Shown here: one piece after another, positions 37,915 to 48,187 of the stretch
How positions within the stretch are numbered: the stretch's first letter is position 1
Layout of the letters: each line of letters starts with the position of its first letter
The notes under the pieces: generated by a model
What the model was told of the DNA's origin: nothing
The model's input: only the letters and a program-made list of their open reading frames with translations
Database searches by the model: none
Program-made: the position numbers and the translations under genes
Assembly: GCF_900156875.1 (NCBI RefSeq)
Contig: NZ_LT707409.1
Coordinates: 3,307,435-3,371,434, forward strand
DNA from: Robertmurraya dakarensis
GTDB lineage: Bacteria; Bacillota; Bacilli; Bacillales; Cytobacillaceae
Length of the DNA: 64,000 bases
Reading direction: 5' to 3'

Positions 37915-38013
37915 ATGGTACCAGGTACCGCCCATGGACACTTTCCCCTTTTTGTCCACCGCCGGTACCTGGTACCGGCGGTGGACAGTGTCTTTTCGGG
38001 ACGGACAGTACCT
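37915..38013. repeat. GGTACC-type palindromic element, copy A
   Basis: GGTACCAGGTACCG and ATGGACA (37917-37940) face TTGTCCACCGCC and GGTACCTGGTACC (37951-37976), then GCGGTGGACA and a decayed GACAGTACCTG. It can form nested hairpins. It lies between the divergent galU and LysM hydrolase genes. Nothing else codes in 37718-38177. Confidence 0.8.
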
Positions 38014-39420: not shown

Positions 39421-39483
39421 CCGGCGCGGACAATATCAAGAAAATGTCCACGAGCGGTACCTGGTACCTAAATGAAGGGTACC
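39421..39483. repeat. GGTACC-type palindromic element, copy B
   Basis: GCGCGGACA, then TGTCCACGAGC, GGTACCTGGTACC (39456-39468) and a last GGTACC at 39478-39483. It is a partial copy of the family at 37915, 41224 and 48126. It lies between convergent genes. Confidence 0.75.
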
Positions 39484-39486
39484 TAA

Positions 39487-39792
39487 TTATTTTGATATGC
39501 ATGTATGGATGCCGATGATGTTGAGGAAGTGGTGTATTTTGTTTAGGGATATTTTTATATATTCTTCACAGATTGTGTGCTCTTTGAGGTAGGCTATCTT
39601 TTTCTTTTGTCCGGCGGGATGATGATGGGTGGTGGTTCTGCGGTTGCTTTCAATTTCTTCACACGGTGCTTCACCATAAGTGAATACCACTGCTTCACCA
39701 ATCTTTTTAGCATTTTTACTAAAGTAAAACGAAAAGACAATGGCACATTCATGATCAATAAAAGAGGGTTGAATCTTCATTTCGATATCCAT
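39487..39792 (-). CDS. Hypothetical small protein
   Basis: A 101-residue frame starts MDIEMKIQPSFIDHECAIVF behind a strong AAAGGAGG ribosome site. It has a His-rich step (TTTHHHPAGQKKK) in the middle and a C-terminal part with a hydrophobic run (FLNIIGIHTC). There is no signal peptide. The GGTACC element ends 3 bases after its stop codon, so the natural C-terminus may have been changed by it. I do not recognise the family. Confidence 0.55.
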   Translation of the reverse strand: MDIEMKIQPSFIDHECAIVFSFYFSKNAKKIGEAVVFTYGEAPCEEIESNRRTTTHHHPAGQKKKIAYLKEHTICEEYIKISLNKIHHFLNIIGIHTCISK

Positions 39793-40008
39793 CCTATTTC
39801 CTCCTTTTACCGTTGTTCCTTATACTGTAACAAAATCCAGAAAAGGTGGTTTTTTCGATAGACATGGCAGAAACGCAGCCAAGCAAACCATATGTACCTA
39901 TATATCTTTTATTTTTATAAATATATAACTATAGGCATATGCTTAGGGAATATTTCTTCCTATCGATGATTACCCTTTTTACAACCCAGCTCTTCAAACA
40001 TAAAAAAA

Positions 40009-40027
40009 ACACCTCATAAAGAGATGT
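40009..40027 (-). terminator. Terminator of the PapR-like peptide gene
   Basis: On the minus strand ACATCTC (40027-40021) pairs with GAGGTGT (40015-40009) with one T-G pair, followed by TTTTTTTT. It lies 20 bases after the peptide gene's stop. Nothing else is seen in 39793-40008. Confidence 0.75.
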
Positions 40028-40047
40028 CCAAGAATAAGGGATATCAA

Positions 40048-40167
40048 TCAGTATTCAGATGGAAGTTCGTGAATGGAGTCGCCGCCGCCAATTGGCCCAG
40101 GCGAAATGATTCCTGCGTTTGTTGCTAAAATAAGCGCTAATGCTAGTCCGATAATACGTTTTTTCAT
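40048..40167 (-). CDS. PapR-like secreted signalling peptide precursor (39 residues)
   Basis: A short gene reads MKKRIIGLALALILATNAGI, then ISPGPIGGGDSIHELPSEY and TGA. GAGGAGG lies 8 bases before the ATG and a terminator follows, so it has full gene structure. The form is that of Phr/PapR peptides: a Lys/Arg start, a hydrophobic signal core, and a short mature end. The last residues ELPSEY resemble the DLPFEY end of B. cereus PapR, whose processed C-terminal 5-7 residues enter the cell and bind PlcR. It is divergent from a PlcR-like regulator, 190 bases away. In B. cereus papR lies behind plcR on the same strand. The exact mature peptide is not known. Confidence 0.72.
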   Translation of the reverse strand: MKKRIIGLALALILATNAGIISPGPIGGGDSIHELPSEY

Positions 40168-40357
40168 TGGTAAACCTCCTCAAAAAGTGTTGATAGCGTT
40201 AAAATGAATATATCTTGACTCTAGTAAAACATATTTCTACAATTTTCAATTTTTCGATATAAGTTGATTTTCTCTACTTTCTACTCTAGTAAATCCGTTA
40301 TACATACTATTTAACCAAAAAATATAATTTTGGGAATATTTGCAGGAGGTGTTTTAA
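40168..40357. promoter_or_regulatory. Divergent control region of peptide and regulator genes
   Basis: The word ACTCTAGTAAA occurs twice in the same direction (40218-40228 and 40283-40293). TATAAT at 40323-40328 is a likely -10 for the regulator, and TATATT near 40208-40213 (minus strand) a possible -10 for the peptide gene. The classical PlcR box TATGnAnnnnTnCATA was not found. AGGAGG at 40345-40350 is the regulator's ribosome site. Confidence 0.45.
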
Positions 40358-41260
40358 ATGGACTTTTCAGCAGTAGGGAAAAGGATCAAGGAGCTTCGCA
40401 AGCAAATCGGCTTGTCTCAAGGAGAGCTGGCCAAAGGGATTTGTACACAGGCGCAAATTAGTAAAATTGAAAACGGGGATGTTTATCCGTATGCTTCTAC
40501 TCTTTATTTGATTTCTGAACGGCTTGGTGTTGACGTTAACTACTTTTTTGACATCGGACTGACACCCCGCCTTGATTATGTACAAGAAGTTTGTAAGCAG
40601 CTTCGGATTACGAGGAGAACAATGAATTATGAAGAAATGAAGCAAATTGTGGAGATGGAGCAGAAGAACCCGCTGTTTTCGCAGAATAGACGAAACTATC
40701 AAGTGCTTCTCTGGCATAAAGGAATTTATGAGCATGCAATGAACAAGGATCTCGGAAAAGCTATACAGACCCTCCAAGAAGCCATTTCCCTCACGCAAAC
40801 TACCGAGAAAATTTACTCTGAGAGAGAGCTTGAGATTATGCTGACGATCGGGGTCATTTACTTTGAGGAAAATGATTTAGACAGCGCACTGAAAATATAT
40901 AAAACAGCTTTTCATGCCATTAAGCAGCTTCCTTATTTAAATGATATTTCGATACAAACCCGGCTTTATTATAATATCGGCCGCGTCCTTACCAGACAGG
41001 AGAAATACCATGAATCGATTCAGTACTGCCAAGAGGGAATTGACTGGTGCATCAAGAGGGAAAGCCTTTATCTGTTAGGGGAACTTCATTATCATACAGG
41101 CTACAACTACGAACTGCTAAACAACCCAATAAAAGCGATACAACTCATGGAAAAAGCCCGGCTCATCTTCGAACTCCAACACGACAATCGCTTCCTCACC
41201 TTCATCACCAAAAAAATCAAAAACATGGTACCAGGTACCCCTCATGGACAAATGGGGTAA
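40358..41260 (+). CDS. PlcR-like RNPP quorum-sensing regulator (HTH plus TPR)
   Basis: The 300-residue protein has an N-terminal XRE-type helix-turn-helix (about 5-60: VGKRIKELRKQIGLSQGELA, QAQISKIENGDVYP). The rest is five or so TPR-like helix pairs (about 80-290: GKAIQTLQEAISL, EENDLDSALKIYKTAF, YYNIGRVLTRQEKYHESIQY, LGELHYHTGYNYELLNN). This is the layout of PlcR, NprR and PrgX, where TPRs bind a re-imported peptide. A PapR-like gene lies head-to-head with it, which supports the assignment. The last 11 residues (MVPGTPHGQMG) are encoded by a GGTACC-type repeat that supplies the stop, so the native end was probably different. A strong AGGAGG ribosome site is present. Confidence 0.85.
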   Translation: MDFSAVGKRIKELRKQIGLSQGELAKGICTQAQISKIENGDVYPYASTLYLISERLGVDVNYFFDIGLTPRLDYVQEVCKQLRITRRTMNYEEMKQIVEMEQKNPLFSQNRRNYQVLLWHKGIYEHAMNKDLGKAIQTLQEAISLTQTTEKIYSERELEIMLTIGVIYFEENDLDSALKIYKTAFHAIKQLPYLNDISIQTRLYYNIGRVLTRQEKYHESIQYCQEGIDWCIKRESLYLLGELHYHTGYNYELLNNPIKAIQLMEKARLIFELQHDNRFLTFITKKIKNMVPGTPHGQMG

Positions 41261-41300
41261 GTTTGTCCACGGACGGTACCTGGTACCGTTCGTGGACATT
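41224..41300. repeat. GGTACC-type palindromic element, copy C, inside a gene end
   Basis: ATGGTACCAGGTACC and CATGGACA (41224-41250) face TTTGTCCACGGAC and GGTACCTGGTACC (41262-41287), then GTTCGTGGACA. It has the same module order as copy A. The first half lies in the reading frame of the PlcR-like gene and provides its last codons and stop. Confidence 0.82.
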
Positions 41301-42528: not shown

Positions 42529-43191
42529 TTAAAGCATGACTTCAAATTTTATATAAGAAAAGAGTGCAGAAAAGATCCAGATAAATAGATTAGTAGATAA
42601 AACGATAAGTAGAAGTACCCCGTTCTTTTTCTCCGTTGTCCATTTTAAATATAAATAATGAAGGACCATCATCCAGATTGAAAAAATTGAAATGTTCCCA
42701 AGTAACTGGATGAGAAATTCAAGTCGAGTTACATACTGCGCCACAACACCCAATCCAAAAGGAGACGATGCCTCATCCAGTCCGAAAAACAGCTGAAATG
42801 GGATCAGCATGGCTTTTTCTAATAACGAAATTGCCGCTGTCAGCAAGCCGATCACCACTAGTTTGCTATACTCGATATCGGTAAAAACCCAAAAGACGAG
42901 CGCCGGGAAGAATATCAGTGCTGTCGTTATTAACATACTCAGAACAACTTGTCCAACCGCAAATAATGCCTTCATATTTTCAAACTCTGCTGCTGAAACA
43001 TCATAGATCTGCTTCGATAGTGATTCATTCCCAATTCCGAAAAAAGCAGAAATTCCTGCTAAAATTAGGCTAATCGCGAGAATCATGGAGGTACGTGTCC
43101 AAATTCCATGAATTTGCTCCGCTTTATGTAATTGATGTGCCGCGACATATGGTGAAAAAAGTCCTCGAAACAGCCTAACTTGAAAAAACAT
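42529..43191 (-). CDS. YIP1-family membrane protein, YknW-like
   Basis: The 220-residue protein begins MFFQVRLFRGLFSPYVAAHQ and has five hydrophobic segments (SMILAISLILAGISAFFGIG, LSMLITTALIFFPALVFWV, LVVIGLLTAAISLL, ISIFSIWMMVLHYLYL, LLIVLSTNLFIWIF). This is the Yip1 layout. In B. subtilis YknW is a Yip1 protein working with the YknXYZ exporter in resistance to the SDP toxin. It is the first gene of a two-gene unit with the adaptor. GGAGG lies 7 bases before the ATG. The assignment to YknW rests on fold type and gene pairing. Confidence 0.7.
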   Translation of the reverse strand: MFFQVRLFRGLFSPYVAAHQLHKAEQIHGIWTRTSMILAISLILAGISAFFGIGNESLSKQIYDVSAAEFENMKALFAVGQVVLSMLITTALIFFPALVFWVFTDIEYSKLVVIGLLTAAISLLEKAMLIPFQLFFGLDEASSPFGLGVVAQYVTRLEFLIQLLGNISIFSIWMMVLHYLYLKWTTEKKNGVLLLIVLSTNLFIWIFSALFSYIKFEVML

Positions 43192-43702
43192 AATGAATCC
43201 TCCAACAATTTGTCATATTCTGTGTATTCATTTTACATCACTTACAGGAAACAGGCATCTGAAATCCATCGTAAATTCTAAAGATTAAGGTAAATCTGTT
43301 AAAAATAGTAAATAATACCCGACCAAAAAAAGACACCCCAGACTTTTCTGGAGTGTAAAAATGGAGATTCTAATAGTATTGTTCTCAAGGAACAATAGAG
43401 CTAAAGGATTGTTACATTAGGATAGCGCCTTTTGGGCTAGACCTATATCCTTATTGAATCACAGTTTTCAGAAAAGAATAAACCCTAAAAAGCAGCGATA
43501 ATCCACTGGTATTACGGCATATATTATCTTTATCTGCCCTTTCTGCTCCGAAATATAACTTTAGGAATATTTTTAAAAGAATTCCCAAAAACGTTAAGCA
43601 ATTCCCATCAAACTTCCATGCCCCTCCCCTCTCACCCTAAAATTTTGTATAATAAGATATTATGGTGTTTTTTACACGTGCAAACGGTGGGAGGTTTTTG
43701 AA
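43192..43702. other. Intergenic region with an orphan minus-strand terminator
   Basis: On the minus strand the hairpin ACACTCCAGA/TCTGGGGTGT (43356-43333) is followed by CTTTTTTT, a good terminator with no gene before it. A second hairpin, TATTGTTC/GAACAATA at 43377-43397, lies just upstream on that strand. No reading frame is seen, so a small RNA is possible. TATAAT at 43648-43653 may belong to the plus-strand ywqB promoter. Confidence 0.4.
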
Positions 43703-45325
43703 TTGGCATCGATCCCAATGAAATATGAAGAGCTGCTTCAAGCAGCGGCAGCGGATTTAAAAGCGCTACTGTGGTCGGAACGGATCGAAGATGAAAAAAT
43801 CGTTCAAAAAGGCCTTCTTTTATACCGACAAGGTCTTGTCTCTAAAGCAAAGCTTGAAAATGACTTTGTCACGGCATCGGTACAGGATGTCACGAGAGTC
43901 CATGTCGAGCTCGACTTAAACTTTTTAAATTTGAGCACTTGCTCCTGTCCTACTGACGGGACGTGCCGGCATATTCTTGCTGTCTTTTTCTACGCATACT
44001 CCCAAGTCGGCAGTGTCGCAGAATGGGTGGAAGACTGGCGGCAGCCCGCTAAAGAGAAAAAATCAGCAGAAACATGGGGGCTGCAAAGAGCAAAGGACTT
44101 GTTGAAGACAGCCGGTGCTTTGCAGCCAGATTATGATTCCTGGGTATCCAGCTTTCGTGAAGACTTCGATTCCATCATGAAGGGAACGAAAAACCCTAAA
44201 CCCTATTTAGTACCAGATTTATTTCAAGTCTACAGCCGTAAGCTCAAGGCGAGCGCGCCCGTGAAGCAGGAATGGAAGCAGTTATATTATATCGTCGCTG
44301 CCATCCACTCTTTTCAACAATTGCTCAACCTGAGCCGGGAGCTGGATCATCAGGAAGCAGACATTAACCGGCACTATCGGCATCTGTTTTTTTCCATTAT
44401 CGATGAAATTGAAGAGCTGGTGGAAAAGTTAAGTGTGCATGCCATGCCCTTTGCGTTTGATGAGTTTATCGCAAGATTGAAGGATGATTGCATTTATTTG
44501 TTGGCAGAGGACTTTGACCTTGAATTTGAACGGACCCATCTTTATGTTGTGCTTTGGACAAAGCTTTACAAAAAGAAGGGCTGGCGTGAACAAGAAACCA
44601 AAAAACTTCAAGAGCTTTATGAACAAACACACACCGTTCCTCTTTTGCTTGGAAGCGCCCATCAGCACATCATGCTGCGGGATGACGACCGCGCATTAAA
44701 AATTTTACAGCATCTTGAAGAAGAAGCAGCACCTTATATGCTTTTCTGGCTGGAAATGTTGAAGGCTTCAAAGGATTGGAAGCGAATGGGCCCTTTTGTC
44801 GACATATTTGCGAACATGCTGCAAGGCTATATTAAGGAACTTCACGATACATATGCGCGCATGGAATTTACCCGCTGGGCATTGAAGGCTGTTTCTGTCT
44901 ACTGCATTGAAAATCATAAGTTCGATTTATATGAAAAAATTCTCGTTCAAACCCTGCCGTACAGTTACCGAATTTATGACGATTTTCTTTTCGAACAAAA
45001 ACAATATGATAAATGGAGTGACCTGCAAGTCTACATTGGATATGACATTTCTTCCTTATCAAACGACAAACTTAAGGCACTGCAAAAAGAAGAGCCGACG
45101 GTCCTGCTCCCGCTTTATCATCAATCAGTTCAACAGCAAATTAATTTAAAAAACCGCAGCAGTTACCGTGTAGCTGTCAAACATTTAAAGAAGCTGCGGA
45201 CGATTTATAAGAAGCTCAAGCGTGAAGACGATTGGCAGCAGTTTTTATCAGTACTTTTAGAAAACACGAAACGGCTGCGAGCCTTCCAGGAAGAATGCGA
45301 AAGGGGCAAGCTGATCAATGCTTAA
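43703..45325 (+). CDS. ywqB: SWIM zinc-finger protein, YwqB-like
   Basis: The start is TTG at 43703 with GGGAGG 8 bases before. The 540-residue protein has a SWIM zinc finger near residue 75 (STCSCPTDGTCRHILAVFF, the CxC...CxH pattern). The rest is mostly helical and not recognisable. SWIM domains are thought to bind DNA or protein. The stop overlaps the SNF2 helicase start by 8 bases, so the two are made together. The same pair occurs in B. subtilis as ywqB-ywqA. A role in DNA metabolism is likely, but the exact task is not known. Confidence 0.87.
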   Translation: MASIPMKYEELLQAAAADLKALLWSERIEDEKIVQKGLLLYRQGLVSKAKLENDFVTASVQDVTRVHVELDLNFLNLSTCSCPTDGTCRHILAVFFYAYSQVGSVAEWVEDWRQPAKEKKSAETWGLQRAKDLLKTAGALQPDYDSWVSSFREDFDSIMKGTKNPKPYLVPDLFQVYSRKLKASAPVKQEWKQLYYIVAAIHSFQQLLNLSRELDHQEADINRHYRHLFFSIIDEIEELVEKLSVHAMPFAFDEFIARLKDDCIYLLAEDFDLEFERTHLYVVLWTKLYKKKGWREQETKKLQELYEQTHTVPLLLGSAHQHIMLRDDDRALKILQHLEEEAAPYMLFWLEMLKASKDWKRMGPFVDIFANMLQGYIKELHDTYARMEFTRWALKAVSVYCIENHKFDLYEKILVQTLPYSYRIYDDFLFEQKQYDKWSDLQVYIGYDISSLSNDKLKALQKEEPTVLLPLYHQSVQQQINLKNRSSYRVAVKHLKKLRTIYKKLKREDDWQQFLSVLLENTKRLRAFQEECERGKLINA

Positions 45326-48122
45326 GTCAACATCGTTAAAAATTAATATAGAACCCTTGGAAGATGGCCAATTCTTTTTAACAGCCGAAAATGAAGACGG
45401 CTTTGATCTCAAGCCTAGCGAATGGAAGTCTCTCCTTTTCAATCGTCATGAAGCAAGCTACTATGGAACATTTGTTCAGGAGAAAAAGCTCGGTGTGGTC
45501 GTCGACGGCTGGCAGCTCGTTACGCTGCTTGCCAATGAGCAGTTTAACCGGCTCGTTGAATGGGATTGGGACGATACCGGGCAAATTTGCTTAGCCGCCG
45601 CCCATTCGATGTATGAATCGATCCAGGAAAAAGACTGGTTCCCCGACTTCGAGGCGCTCCAGCAGGATGAATTCAAATGGCGCCTCCCCCAGCGGGTGTA
45701 CCATGAATTCGGCGAAAACTTCTGGGAGCAGAACGTCGAGCATGACATCCCTGTTAAAGATTTTGTAACAGGCTGGTATAACGCATCCCTGCAGGCTTTT
45801 TTTAAAAAAGAACCGCAGTGGAAAGAAAAAATCGGCAAGAAGCTCGAAGCCATTCAAAATCATTCTCTTCCTCCACGGGCACTTTCTTCTTATTTTGATG
45901 AAGAAACTTGGAGTGAATGGATTGGATTGAAGGATAGCGCCCTGCCCTTTTCGATAGGGCTGAGATTAGAAGAGCCCGCTGATATCGCTGAACCGTGGGA
46001 GCTGCGGATCTTTTTACGAGGAAAAGATGATCCTGAAGTCGTCGTTGATGTAAATGATCATAGCAATATGCCTGCGAAATGGTTTGACTTCCTTGAAGCA
46101 GTCGATCGAGAGCAGCAGCGCTGGATTGCGCTTTTTCCCTGGCTGGAAGGTAAAAATGGCGTAACAAACATACTGACGGAAAATGAAGCATGGCTATTCT
46201 TAACAGAAGGCAGTGAAACACTATTGGCGTTAGGAATTGAGATTCTTCTCCCTTCATGGTGGCTGGCGATGAAAAATGCCAATTTGAAAGTCAAAGCGAA
46301 ATTGAAGGGTTCCGCCTCCAGCCATAGGCCTTCATTCGTTGGATTGCAGGCGATGCTGGATTACAACTGGCGCTTCTCGATGAATGGCGTTGAGCTTTCT
46401 GAAGAGGAGTTCTCACAGCTCGTTGAAGAAAAGCGGCGACTTGTCTATATTCGCGGCCGCTGGATTAAGCTTGATCCTGGGTTTGTTCATCAAATTCAAG
46501 AATTGATGAAACGAGCTGAAAAGGAAGGCCTGCATGTTCGCGATTTAATTCAGCAGGAATTACTTGGACCTGATGAAAATGAAGGCGATTCAGCTGAAGA
46601 TCTCGGGCTGATGCGCGTGCAAATTGAACTGAATCGTCAATGGAAGCAAATGATCAAACAGCTCCGCGATATCAAATCGATTCCTGAAGCATCTGTGCCT
46701 GACAGCTTCCAAGGCGCGCTCCGCCCTTATCAAATTCAAGGGATGAGCTGGCTCTTGTTTTTACGCCAGTACGGTTTTGGGGCTGTGCTTGCCGATGATA
46801 TGGGACTTGGAAAAACGATTCAATTGATCTCGTATATTCTGTCTGTGAAGGAAAAAGAAAAAAGCGGTCCTGCCCTGATTATTTGCCCTACCTCCGTTTT
46901 AGGAAACTGGCAAAAGGAGATTGAACGTTTTGCACCTGATTTGAACGTCTATCTCCACTATGGATCAAATCGTATGAAGGAAGACGCTTTTACGGAAAAA
47001 GTGTCTGAAGTTGATATCGTGCTGACCTCATTCGGGCTGACCCATCTTGATCTTGCTGAATTTGAGAGCATTGAATGGAGTTCTATTTCAATAGATGAAG
47101 CGCAAAACATTAAAAATGCGCAGACGAAGCAGTCGCGGGCGGTGCGCAAGTTAAAAGGCAAGCATCATATCGCATTAACGGGGACACCGATGGAAAACCG
47201 CTTGAGCGAATTGTGGTCGATTTTTGATTTTACCAATCACGGTTTCCTTGGCAGCCTTGGTCAATTCCAGAAAAACTATGTCGTTCCAATCGAGAAGAAC
47301 GATGAAAAAGAAAAGATTGGTGAGCTGCAGGCGTTGATTCGTCCCTTCCTTTTAAGAAGGACGAAAAAGGATGAAGAGGTTGCACTAAATCTGCCTGATA
47401 AGCAGGAGCAAAAGGAATACTGTCCGCTGACGGCCGAGCAGGCGTCACTTTACGAACAGCTCGTCCGCGATACATTTGTGCAAATTGAGACATTAACAGG
47501 CCTTGAACGAAAAGGATTAATTCTGCAATTATTGAGCCGTTTGAAGCAGCTTTGCAACCACCCTGCACTGTATTTGAAAGAAGAAAAGCCGAAGCGTGTG
47601 CTGGAACGATCTGTGAAGCTTGAAAAATTGGCCGAACTAGTCGACGCCGTGCTGGAGCAAAAGGAAAGCTGCTTAATTTTTACCCAATATATTGAAATGG
47701 GTGAAATGATGCGGACGATGCTGAAGCAGAAGTTCAAAATCGAAGTTCCATTCCTGAATGGCAGTGTTCCAAAAAGCAAGCGTGATGAGATGATTACCCG
47801 TTTCCAAAACCACGAGTTCCCTGTATTCATACTGTCGTTAAAAGCAGGCGGCACCGGTTTGAATTTAACGGCGGCCAATCATGTCATCCACTATGACCGC
47901 TGGTGGAACCCCGCTGTCGAGAATCAAGCAACAGACCGTGCTTACCGCATTGGCCAAAAGCGGTTTGTCCATGTTCATAAATTCATCAGCACCGGCACAC
48001 TCGAAGAAAAAATCGATGCCATGCTCGAGAAAAAACAATCGCTCAACGACGCCATCATCCAAAGCGACAGCTGGATCACCGAACTCTCCACAGACGAACT
48101 CCGCGACCTCGTCTCCCTATAA
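45318..48122 (+). CDS. ywqA: SNF2-family DEAD/DEAH-type helicase/translocase, YwqA-like
   Basis: The 934-residue protein has a long N-terminal region (about 1-450, bacterial SNF2-associated) and a C-terminal SNF2 motor. Motifs in order: LADDMGLGKTIQLISY (I), LIICPTSVLGNWQKEI (Ia), SIDEAQNIKN (II), ALTGTPMENRLSELWSIFDF (III), SLKAGGTGLNLTAANHV (V) and RWWNPAVENQATDRAYRIGQ (VI). It is an ATP-driven double-strand DNA translocase that may remodel protein-DNA complexes. It overlaps ywqB. The stop is followed 4 bases later by a GGTACC-type repeat and then a terminator. Confidence 0.93.
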   Translation: MLKSTSLKINIEPLEDGQFFLTAENEDGFDLKPSEWKSLLFNRHEASYYGTFVQEKKLGVVVDGWQLVTLLANEQFNRLVEWDWDDTGQICLAAAHSMYESIQEKDWFPDFEALQQDEFKWRLPQRVYHEFGENFWEQNVEHDIPVKDFVTGWYNASLQAFFKKEPQWKEKIGKKLEAIQNHSLPPRALSSYFDEETWSEWIGLKDSALPFSIGLRLEEPADIAEPWELRIFLRGKDDPEVVVDVNDHSNMPAKWFDFLEAVDREQQRWIALFPWLEGKNGVTNILTENEAWLFLTEGSETLLALGIEILLPSWWLAMKNANLKVKAKLKGSASSHRPSFVGLQAMLDYNWRFSMNGVELSEEEFSQLVEEKRRLVYIRGRWIKLDPGFVHQIQELMKRAEKEGLHVRDLIQQELLGPDENEGDSAEDLGLMRVQIELNRQWKQMIKQLRDIKSIPEASVPDSFQGALRPYQIQGMSWLLFLRQYGFGAVLADDMGLGKTIQLISYILSVKEKEKSGPALIICPTSVLGNWQKEIERFAPDLNVYLHYGSNRMKEDAFTEKVSEVDIVLTSFGLTHLDLAEFESIEWSSISIDEAQNIKNAQTKQSRAVRKLKGKHHIALTGTPMENRLSELWSIFDFTNHGFLGSLGQFQKNYVVPIEKNDEKEKIGELQALIRPFLLRRTKKDEEVALNLPDKQEQKEYCPLTAEQASLYEQLVRDTFVQIETLTGLERKGLILQLLSRLKQLCNHPALYLKEEKPKRVLERSVKLEKLAELVDAVLEQKESCLIFTQYIEMGEMMRTMLKQKFKIEVPFLNGSVPKSKRDEMITRFQNHEFPVFILSLKAGGTGLNLTAANHVIHYDRWWNPAVENQATDRAYRIGQKRFVHVHKFISTGTLEEKIDAMLEKKQSLNDAIIQSDSWITELSTDELRDLVSL

Positions 48123-48125
48123 AAA

Positions 48126-48187
48126 AGCGGTACCTGGTACCGTCCGTGGACAGTTGTTCGATTTTGTCCGCACGGAGCGGACACACA
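48126..48187. repeat. GGTACC-type palindromic element, copy D
   Basis: GCGGTACCTGGTACCG and TCCGTGGACA (48127-48152) are followed by TGTCCGC-ACGGA-GCGGACA, an inner hairpin. It is a half copy of the family at 37915 and 41224. It lies directly after ywqA and before its terminator. Confidence 0.8.

Follow-up and report, generated by a model that had tools for sequence, protein, structure and literature searches.

Receptor-peptide signalling of the RRNPP type is a known kind of system, and the described member that comes closest to the locus treated here is PlcR-PapR of the Bacillus cereus group. PlcR boxes follow the consensus wTATGnAwwwwTnCATAw, and 28 active boxes are spread over the chromosome (PMC2464732, in part). 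In streptococci, divergent peptide and receptor genes are known from groups I and II of the Rgg-SHP systems (PMC3679016, in part), and the arbitrium system AimP-AimR-AimX of Bacillus phages consists of a peptide, a receptor and a receptor-controlled non-coding RNA (PMC13389391, in part). The RRNPP_detector survey found PlcR to form one cluster and added 21 new clusters, with the gene orientation shown in a figure; its main text mentions none of Peribacillus, Rossellomorea, Cytobacillus, Niallia or sRNA, and some of the receptor-peptide pairs described below may already be contained in its figures or supplementary tables (PMC10075063, in part). As to the gene order, the discussion of an mBio paper of 2022 places the pheromone gene of Bacillales systems immediately downstream of that for the receptor, and its introduction gives upstream or downstream positions for the family at large (PMC9765709, in part).

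The locus lies in 64,000 nt of Robertmurraya dakarensis (GCF_900156875.1, contig NZ_LT707409.1, 3,307,435-3,371,434, forward strand), in the following called the window, and all coordinates are positions within it; the whole genome comprises 5.48 Mb. With PlcR-PapR the locus shares an HTH plus TPR receptor, a putatively secreted precursor, a C-terminal peptide of the [DE]LPxEY type and a 16-bp palindromic operator frame. It differs from it in several respects: papR lies downstream of plcR in the same direction, whereas the pheromone gene is divergent here; the PlcR box reads TATGnA..TnCATA and the present operator TATAAC..GGmATA; PlcR boxes are scattered, whereas three strong sites with a near-fixed 105-bp promoter spacing are clustered at a single locus here; and a protein X and a small RNA are additions relative to PlcR-PapR. 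The divergent layout is common to this locus and to Rgg-SHP groups I and II, which differ in peptide export (PptAB) and in the receptor branch (PMC9765709, in part). Like in arbitrium, there is a peptide, a receptor and an RNA, but the receptor is PlcR-like with 300 aa, there is the extra protein X, and no phage genes were recognised beside the locus. Judged from sequence, the locus is likely to be a chromosomal, autoregulated system for RRNPP peptide signalling that belongs to a PlcR-like clade of its own and has two kinds of output, a protein and an RNA. In the freely accessible paper texts that were searched, the clade's divergent layout, operator, X and RNA were not found.

A predicted pheromone divergent from its receptor

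The receptor gene and the predicted pheromone gene, with its terminator, are located as follows:

40358..41260, plus strand: RNPP/PlcR-like receptor-regulator, 300 aa (Pfam, PDB, AlphaFold2/Foldseek)
40048..40167, minus strand: pheromone precursor, 39 aa, with a signal-type N-terminus and the C-terminus HELPSEY (ORF; relatives)
40007..40029, minus strand: intrinsic terminator of the pheromone transcript (called at 40029-40007)

A preliminary description had taken this pair for a PlcR-like HTH-TPR regulator that lies head-to-head with a 39-codon gene for a PapR-like peptide, and this reading stands. The regulator has an HTH domain at about residues 6-64 and a TPR domain at about 70-290, with Pfam matches to RNPP_C (1.8e-18) and HTH_3 (5.7e-13); its best sequence match in the PDB is PlcR (2qfc, 6e-15), and with the AlphaFold2 model (pLDDT 90.4) Foldseek ranks PlcR structures 1-4 (3u3w/2qfc/4fsc), followed by ComR, Rgg2, PrgX and other TPR proteins. 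The nearest solved fold is hence PlcR, with 69 of 278 aligned residues identical (24.8%). Pfam, model and Foldseek together give the RRNPP/RNPP arrangement of an N-terminal HTH and a C-terminal TPR peptide-binding domain, and the adjacent small secreted propeptide with a C-terminal signal, also typical of these families, is predicted at 40048-40167 and in 64 of the best 80 of 244 relatives' loci. The protein does not appear to be a nine-TPR receptor of the AimR type, as it has 300 aa, PlcR as the closest fold and no AimR among the 50 Foldseek matches listed.

A TPR pocket lacking peptide-binding residues had been named beforehand as a point that would speak against a peptide receptor, and in the part of the pocket that was compared the PlcR residues are indeed not retained: K89, Q237 and Y275, reported to hold the glutamate of PapR, correspond to M89, E242 and F279 in one pairwise alignment, which could be explained by a different peptide. 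The regulator ends with 11 codons (MVPGTPHGQMG) to which nothing corresponds in the 12 aligned relatives; they stem from a GGTACC repeat that occurs at 83 places in the R. dakarensis genome (none with a reversed control). This repeat, centred on GGTACCTGGTACC, is found at 6 places in the window (37917-37976, 39456-39468, 41227-41287 and 48129-48141), and one repeat pair makes up the last 11 codons and a hairpin just 3' of the regulator.

A quick tree with 70 rows puts the regulator inside a clade of 52 rows (support 98), and PlcR, represented by one row on a long branch, falls outside. Within this clade, 37 rows have a divergent pheromone ORF, 1 has it upstream and co-directional, and 14 have none; beyond the clade there are other layouts, tandem with DLPDRH and DLPSQH, convergent with DLPYCH and divergent with EPGVMH. 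The idea of a peptide pair of its own type agrees with this position of PlcR and with the differing operator bases.

The pheromone ORF begins with ATG behind an AGGAGG and ends with IHELPSEY, fitting the core [DE]LPxEY/F; the mature peptide is predicted to have about 6-8 residues ending in ELPSEY. Conservation was assessed in the best 80 of 244 relatives' loci, which came from a regulator scan of genomes, by a fixed rule that demands a divergent ORF with a signal-type N-terminus and [EDP]LP in the remainder; secretion was called by a simple basic-plus-hydrophobic rule in place of a signal-peptide program, and 929 windows taken from the same loci served as controls. Such an ORF is present in 64 of the 80 loci versus 8 of the 929 controls, the divergent orientation, noted early on as a departure from plcR-papR, being shared by these 64, and the distance to the regulator is 180-220 bp in 62 of the 64 (228 and 446 bp in the other two). 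In a second sample of 61 genomes including R. dakarensis, 48 have a regulator match, and many of the 30 loci listed from these 48 show a short ORF of the secreted type that is read away from the regulator. A regulator that is accompanied by no short gene, which had been proposed as the refuting case, does occur in 16 of the best 80 of 244 loci and does not in the other 64; 15 of the 16 have the same promoter position, followed by a short predicted non-coding transcript. In one of these loci, L063 of Peribacillus frigoritolerans T7-IITJ, the pheromone frame is interrupted, and operator, X and receptor are still present.

Tails in the relatives include ELPGLY, ELPSVY, ELPTIF, ELPSVH and ELPSEY; only 4 of the 64 end in ELPSEY or ELPNEY, and the glutamate is absent from most others (ELPxx). 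Two to 5 peptide copies per precursor are found in 25 of the 64 pheromone loci (best 80 of 244). In 38 non-redundant triples out of 58, pheromone distance correlates with the distance of the TPR domain (r 0.41), with that of the HTH at 0.24 and that of X at 0.19; the partial correlation between pheromone and TPR is 0.37 given X (permutation p <=2e-4) and 0.34 given the HTH, and that between pheromone and X is -0.01 given the TPR.

Operator and promoter geometry

The early expectation of an operator that differs from the PlcR box was borne out. As for the PlcR box itself, TATGNANNNNTNCATA, the window has 4 matches with at most one mismatch versus 3.3 expected, all of them more than 8 kb from the locus, and it was therefore rejected as the operator. 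Instead, a block just 5' of the regulator start in an alignment of 45 intergenic regions was the first sign of a 22-bp element, AAATATAACTnTAGGmATATTT, for which a matrix was built from 33 distinct sites. Operator and PlcR box have the 16-bp frame TAT-N10-ATA in common, and the remaining fixed bases differ. The operator, like X and the RNA, had no part in the preliminary description. The sites at the locus, the extended -10 elements predicted behind them, and the gene of X are:

40320..40341, plus strand: operator 1, AAATATAATTTTGGGAATATTT, 25.0 bits, with 16 bp to the start codon ATG of the regulator (matrix, alignment)
40223..40231, minus strand: predicted extended -10 of the pheromone, TGTTTTACT, score 8.0, 105 bp behind operator 1
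39921..39942, plus strand: operator 2, ATATATAACTATAGGCATATGC, 19.7 bits, 129 bp upstream of X (matrix)
39824..39832, minus strand: predicted extended -10 of X, TGTTACAGT, 105 bp behind operator 2
39487..39792, minus strand: protein X, 101 aa, predicted b-b-b-b-a-b fold (homologs, structure model)
43551..43572, plus strand: operator 3, AAATATAACTTTAGGAATATTT, 33.4 bits (matrix)
43453..43461, minus strand: predicted extended -10 of the small RNA, TGATTCAAT, 106 bp behind operator 3

With at most 2 mismatches, the 5.48-Mb genome contains three copies of the operator, all at this locus, and operator 3 is its only exact match to the 22-bp consensus. Operator 2 is weak at its 19.7 bits, and a second, overlapping half-site extends it to about 39956. 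At 3 mismatches there are ten further sites (a reversed-pattern control gave 12 in all), and none of the ten in the R. dakarensis genome has an extended -10 with a score of at least 8 at 103-107 bp behind it. Operator 1 has an equivalent that reaches the matrix cut within 75 bp of the regulator start in 74 of the best 80 of 244 loci. It overlaps TATAAT at 40323-40328, a hexamer that could be the regulator's own -10. This suggests negative autoregulation, and it should be added that a sigma-70 promoter scan, with 12 sites versus 9.9 by chance, was near chance overall.

Counted over 74 operators of the regulator, extended -10 elements are found most often at 105 bp (54 loci) and next at 104 bp (15), and any other distance is represented by at most 8 loci. 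When 103-117 bp were searched in the best 80 of 244 loci, an extended -10 with a score of at least 8 was present at 103-106 bp in 60 of the 64 pheromone loci and in all 16 others, and 4.4% of 4800 random positions had one at 103-107 bp. In the window, a higher-scoring hexamer for the pheromone, AGATATATT with a score of 9.0, lies at 121 bp from operator 1. For the promoters of X, 33 of 59 X genes entered the spacing test (32 relatives and the window), and 32 of the 33 have an operator of at least 9 bits, with L071 as the exception. Among extended -10 candidates no more than 70 bp from the X start, the best one has a distance of 104-106 bp to the centre of the operator in 28 of the 32, and of exactly 105 bp in 22. 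The sequence between operator and -10 is poorly conserved in these X promoters, and their alignment has no conserved -35 upstream of the extended -10, which suggests that they need an activator. The near-fixed distance of the extended -10 promoters likewise suggests activation, and part of the fixed spacing may be due to common descent.

Operators of this type were also seen in other surroundings. In L111-L114 (three Rossellomorea and one [Bacillus] enclensis), the operator lies between a gene which we take to encode a threonine aldolase and that of an HTH-TPR regulator whose length of 418 aa is similar to NprR, a hint of a cascade; on the aldolase side, no -10 candidate at 105 bp reaches a score of 8. 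The Cytobacillus firmus-type loci L039-L041 and L044 encode two PlcR-like receptors, and the second of these has an operator-like site to itself, with the UCUCC RNA module behind it.

Protein X

X belongs to a family of about 105 aa that is found in 58 of the best 80 of 244 relatives' loci, and in addition in L006, L007 and the window; it is absent from the other 22 of the 80. Pheromone and X mostly occur together, with both in 57, only the pheromone in 7, only X in 1 and neither in 15 of these best 80 of 244 (Fisher p 3.7e-10, relatedness ignored), and in the sample of 61 genomes X is found in 4, each time within 4 kb of the receptor. X has no Pfam match and no credible NCBIfam match. Its structure model has a pLDDT of 84.6. 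An enzyme function was considered and rejected, as X has no family, the PDB profile search gave a best E of 0.8, and Foldseek found weak half-GNAT folds with a best E of 6e-3.

A predicted small RNA behind the third operator

Behind operator 3, a structured transcript is predicted:

43326..43446, minus strand: predicted small RNA, about 120 nt, three hairpins, unpaired AAUCUCCAUUUU (fold, model R1)
43356-43333, minus strand: terminator of the small RNA, within 43326-43446

It carries the motif AUCUCC, has a fold z of -4.0 and has no match in Rfam at the gathering score or at E <=1. A covariance model, R1, was trained on 19 rows with the window's RNA excluded, and finds this RNA with 40.7 bits (E 2.2e-7), the next best match having 15.8. 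Over 89 sources (1.1 Mb) there are 34 matches with at least 38 bits, the next having 23.5, and by coordinates all 34 are behind an operator or operator-like site; 19 of them had served for training, and several of the rest are nearly identical to these. Among the 16 pheromone-less loci, 11 have a match in the slot, and among the 64 pheromone loci, 14 have one in the 3' UTR (best 80 of 244); the remaining ones are 4 at second receptors, 4 in loci of the 61-genome sample and the one of the window. Among 41 genomes, 18 have an R1 match at E <=0.01. Four of the 12 R1 loci that were inspected, with 32.8-36.5 bits and in three cases located after one and the same metabolic gene, have no operator within 1.5 kb, and the same is true for a fifth with 30.4 bits, so that the 40.7 bits alone are not decisive. 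In L185, L186 and L190, a UCUCC-type element with a terminator is located at the 3' end of a metabolic gene, presumably that of isocitrate lyase, with no operator within 1.5 kb.

In three congeners (R1 45.0, 35.2 and 35.2 bits) the RNA is at the same place beside a SWIM gene with the -10 at 105.0 bp; the operator is good in one of them (27.0 bits) and poor in two (8.9 bits), and these congeners have no close ortholog of the receptor (best 36-38%). Of the 16 pheromone-less loci, 14 have in the slot a terminated transcript whose terminator contains UCUCC or has it alongside, the two others being L063, with its interrupted frame, and L109. The window's own pheromone transcript has no RNA module. 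A 104-nt piece of a Niallia-type RNA folds only slightly better than shuffled sequences (z -1.6). A plain DNA search with the window's RNA gave matches in 16 of 193 family genomes, and all but one of those outside R. dakarensis covered the operator end of the query; the relatives of the RNA were therefore taken from R1. An anti-Shine-Dalgarno pattern search for targets of the RNA gave an uninformative 22 matches versus 12 in the control.

The SWIM-SNF2 helicase gene pair (window 43703-48122) adjoins the locus and follows the receptor in Peribacillus simplex (L048). Its operon (43703 onward) was considered as the target of operator 3 and is the less likely one: the nearest extended -10 candidates on that side are at 89 or 99 bp, which is why the leftward RNA at 106 bp is preferred. 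L048 (4627-4722, minus strand) and 20 similar Peribacillus-type loci contain a different structured RNA, with a CTAGTACC motif and a terminator, which was considered as an equivalent of the window's RNA and dismissed as being another RNA. It has its -10 at 114-115 bp behind a further operator, its hairpins covary (double changes at 12 of 18 pairs, in 17 of 21 sequences), and the three loci searched gave no Rfam match at the gathering score. The gene that follows it in 19 of the 21 loci codes for about 480 aa and resembles CorA weakly at best: two members have Pfam E values of 0.018 and 0.08, and a third has no match. Riboswitches of the c-di-GMP-I type lie about 4.5 kb (L076, 1372-1456) and about 6 kb (L107, 12382-12465) from the receptor gene.

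Proposed mechanism and alternative explanations

In the system as proposed, the precursor would be exported, trimmed and re-imported, and the mature peptide would sit in the TPR groove of the receptor, which in its peptide-loaded form would bind the operator. At operator 1 the loaded receptor would shut or tune its own promoter, and from its position 105-106 bp upstream, about ten helical turns, it would activate the extended -10 promoters of the pheromone, X and the RNA, with a positive feedback at the pheromone promoter. The unpaired AUCUCC of the small RNA could pair with Shine-Dalgarno sequences, and the RNA therefore probably represses the translation of other mRNAs. As a more tentative extension, for which the chances are somewhat below even, one receptor-controlled promoter may yield a pheromone mRNA, a pheromone mRNA with an anti-Shine-Dalgarno sRNA at its 3' end, or the sRNA alone; in the window, the two products would be split onto separate operator copies, and in lineages like Niallia only the RNA would be left after loss of the peptide.

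The locus might also be a plain PlcR-PapR system in which papR has moved to the other side, with operator logic and family unchanged, as PlcR is the closest solved relative, the peptide ends are alike ([DE]LPxEY) and the TAT-N10-ATA frame is retained. However, with an identity of only 24.8%, PlcR outside the 52-row clade, no PlcR box nearby, other operator bases, the lost contacts to the PapR glutamate, and ELPSEY or ELPNEY in only 4 of 64 tails, this is very unlikely. Even a little less probable is that the divergent ORF is no working signal but incidental or decaying, and that the real product of the promoter is a regulatory RNA. This would suit the pheromone-less loci, 15 of 16 with a short terminated transcript, 14 with UCUCC and 11 with the full 3' module, as well as the 14 of 64 pheromone loci with the module in the 3' UTR, but then it would be difficult to see why 64 ORFs in the best 80 of 244 loci keep a signal-type N-terminus and an ELPxx-type tail, 25 of them with 2-5 copies, why the pheromone co-varies with the TPR domain of the receptor, and why the window's pheromone transcript has no RNA module.

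More weight has to be given to the mode of action. The receptor could repress, or the peptide could free it from the DNA as in AimR, and the 105-bp operators would then serve looping and not activation. Operator 1 does overlap a possible regulator -10, albeit in a promoter scan near chance overall, the spacing is near a whole number of helical turns, and arbitrium receptors quit the DNA upon peptide binding (PMC13389391, in part). On the other hand, the X promoters have no visible conserved -35, and in PlcR, which is the nearest solved relative, the peptide has an activating effect (PMC6568020, in part), which makes repression or release the unlikely option, if by no means a negligible one. 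About the same modest chance is given to the RNA behind operator 3 being a mere attenuator-ended leader of the downstream membrane-protein gene (42529-43191) that does not act in trans. The start of this gene is 135 bp past the RNA end, and the different structured RNA of the Peribacillus-type loci, also behind an operator, precedes the genes of about 480 aa in 19 of 21 cases; but a different gene follows the RNA in 2 of the 3 congeners, and the same 3' module recurs in other loci, either within the 3' UTR of the pheromone or as a transcript by itself. Activation by the peptide-loaded receptor, with an RNA that acts on other mRNAs, is the preferred reading.

Implications

The divergent pheromone of this clade runs against the printed generalisation that Bacillales encode it immediately downstream of the receptor (PMC9765709, in part). 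The predictions extend to pheromone, receptor, operator and promoter geometry and can be tested at low cost, which gives a readable peptide language to dozens of Bacillaceae, including Peribacillus, Rossellomorea, Cytobacillus and others. The natural series of peptide only, peptide plus RNA in one transcript, and RNA only lends itself to the study of how signal and effector genes merge and split, and if the proposed system is true, peptide quorum sensing would be joined to a small RNA in a bacterial chromosome.
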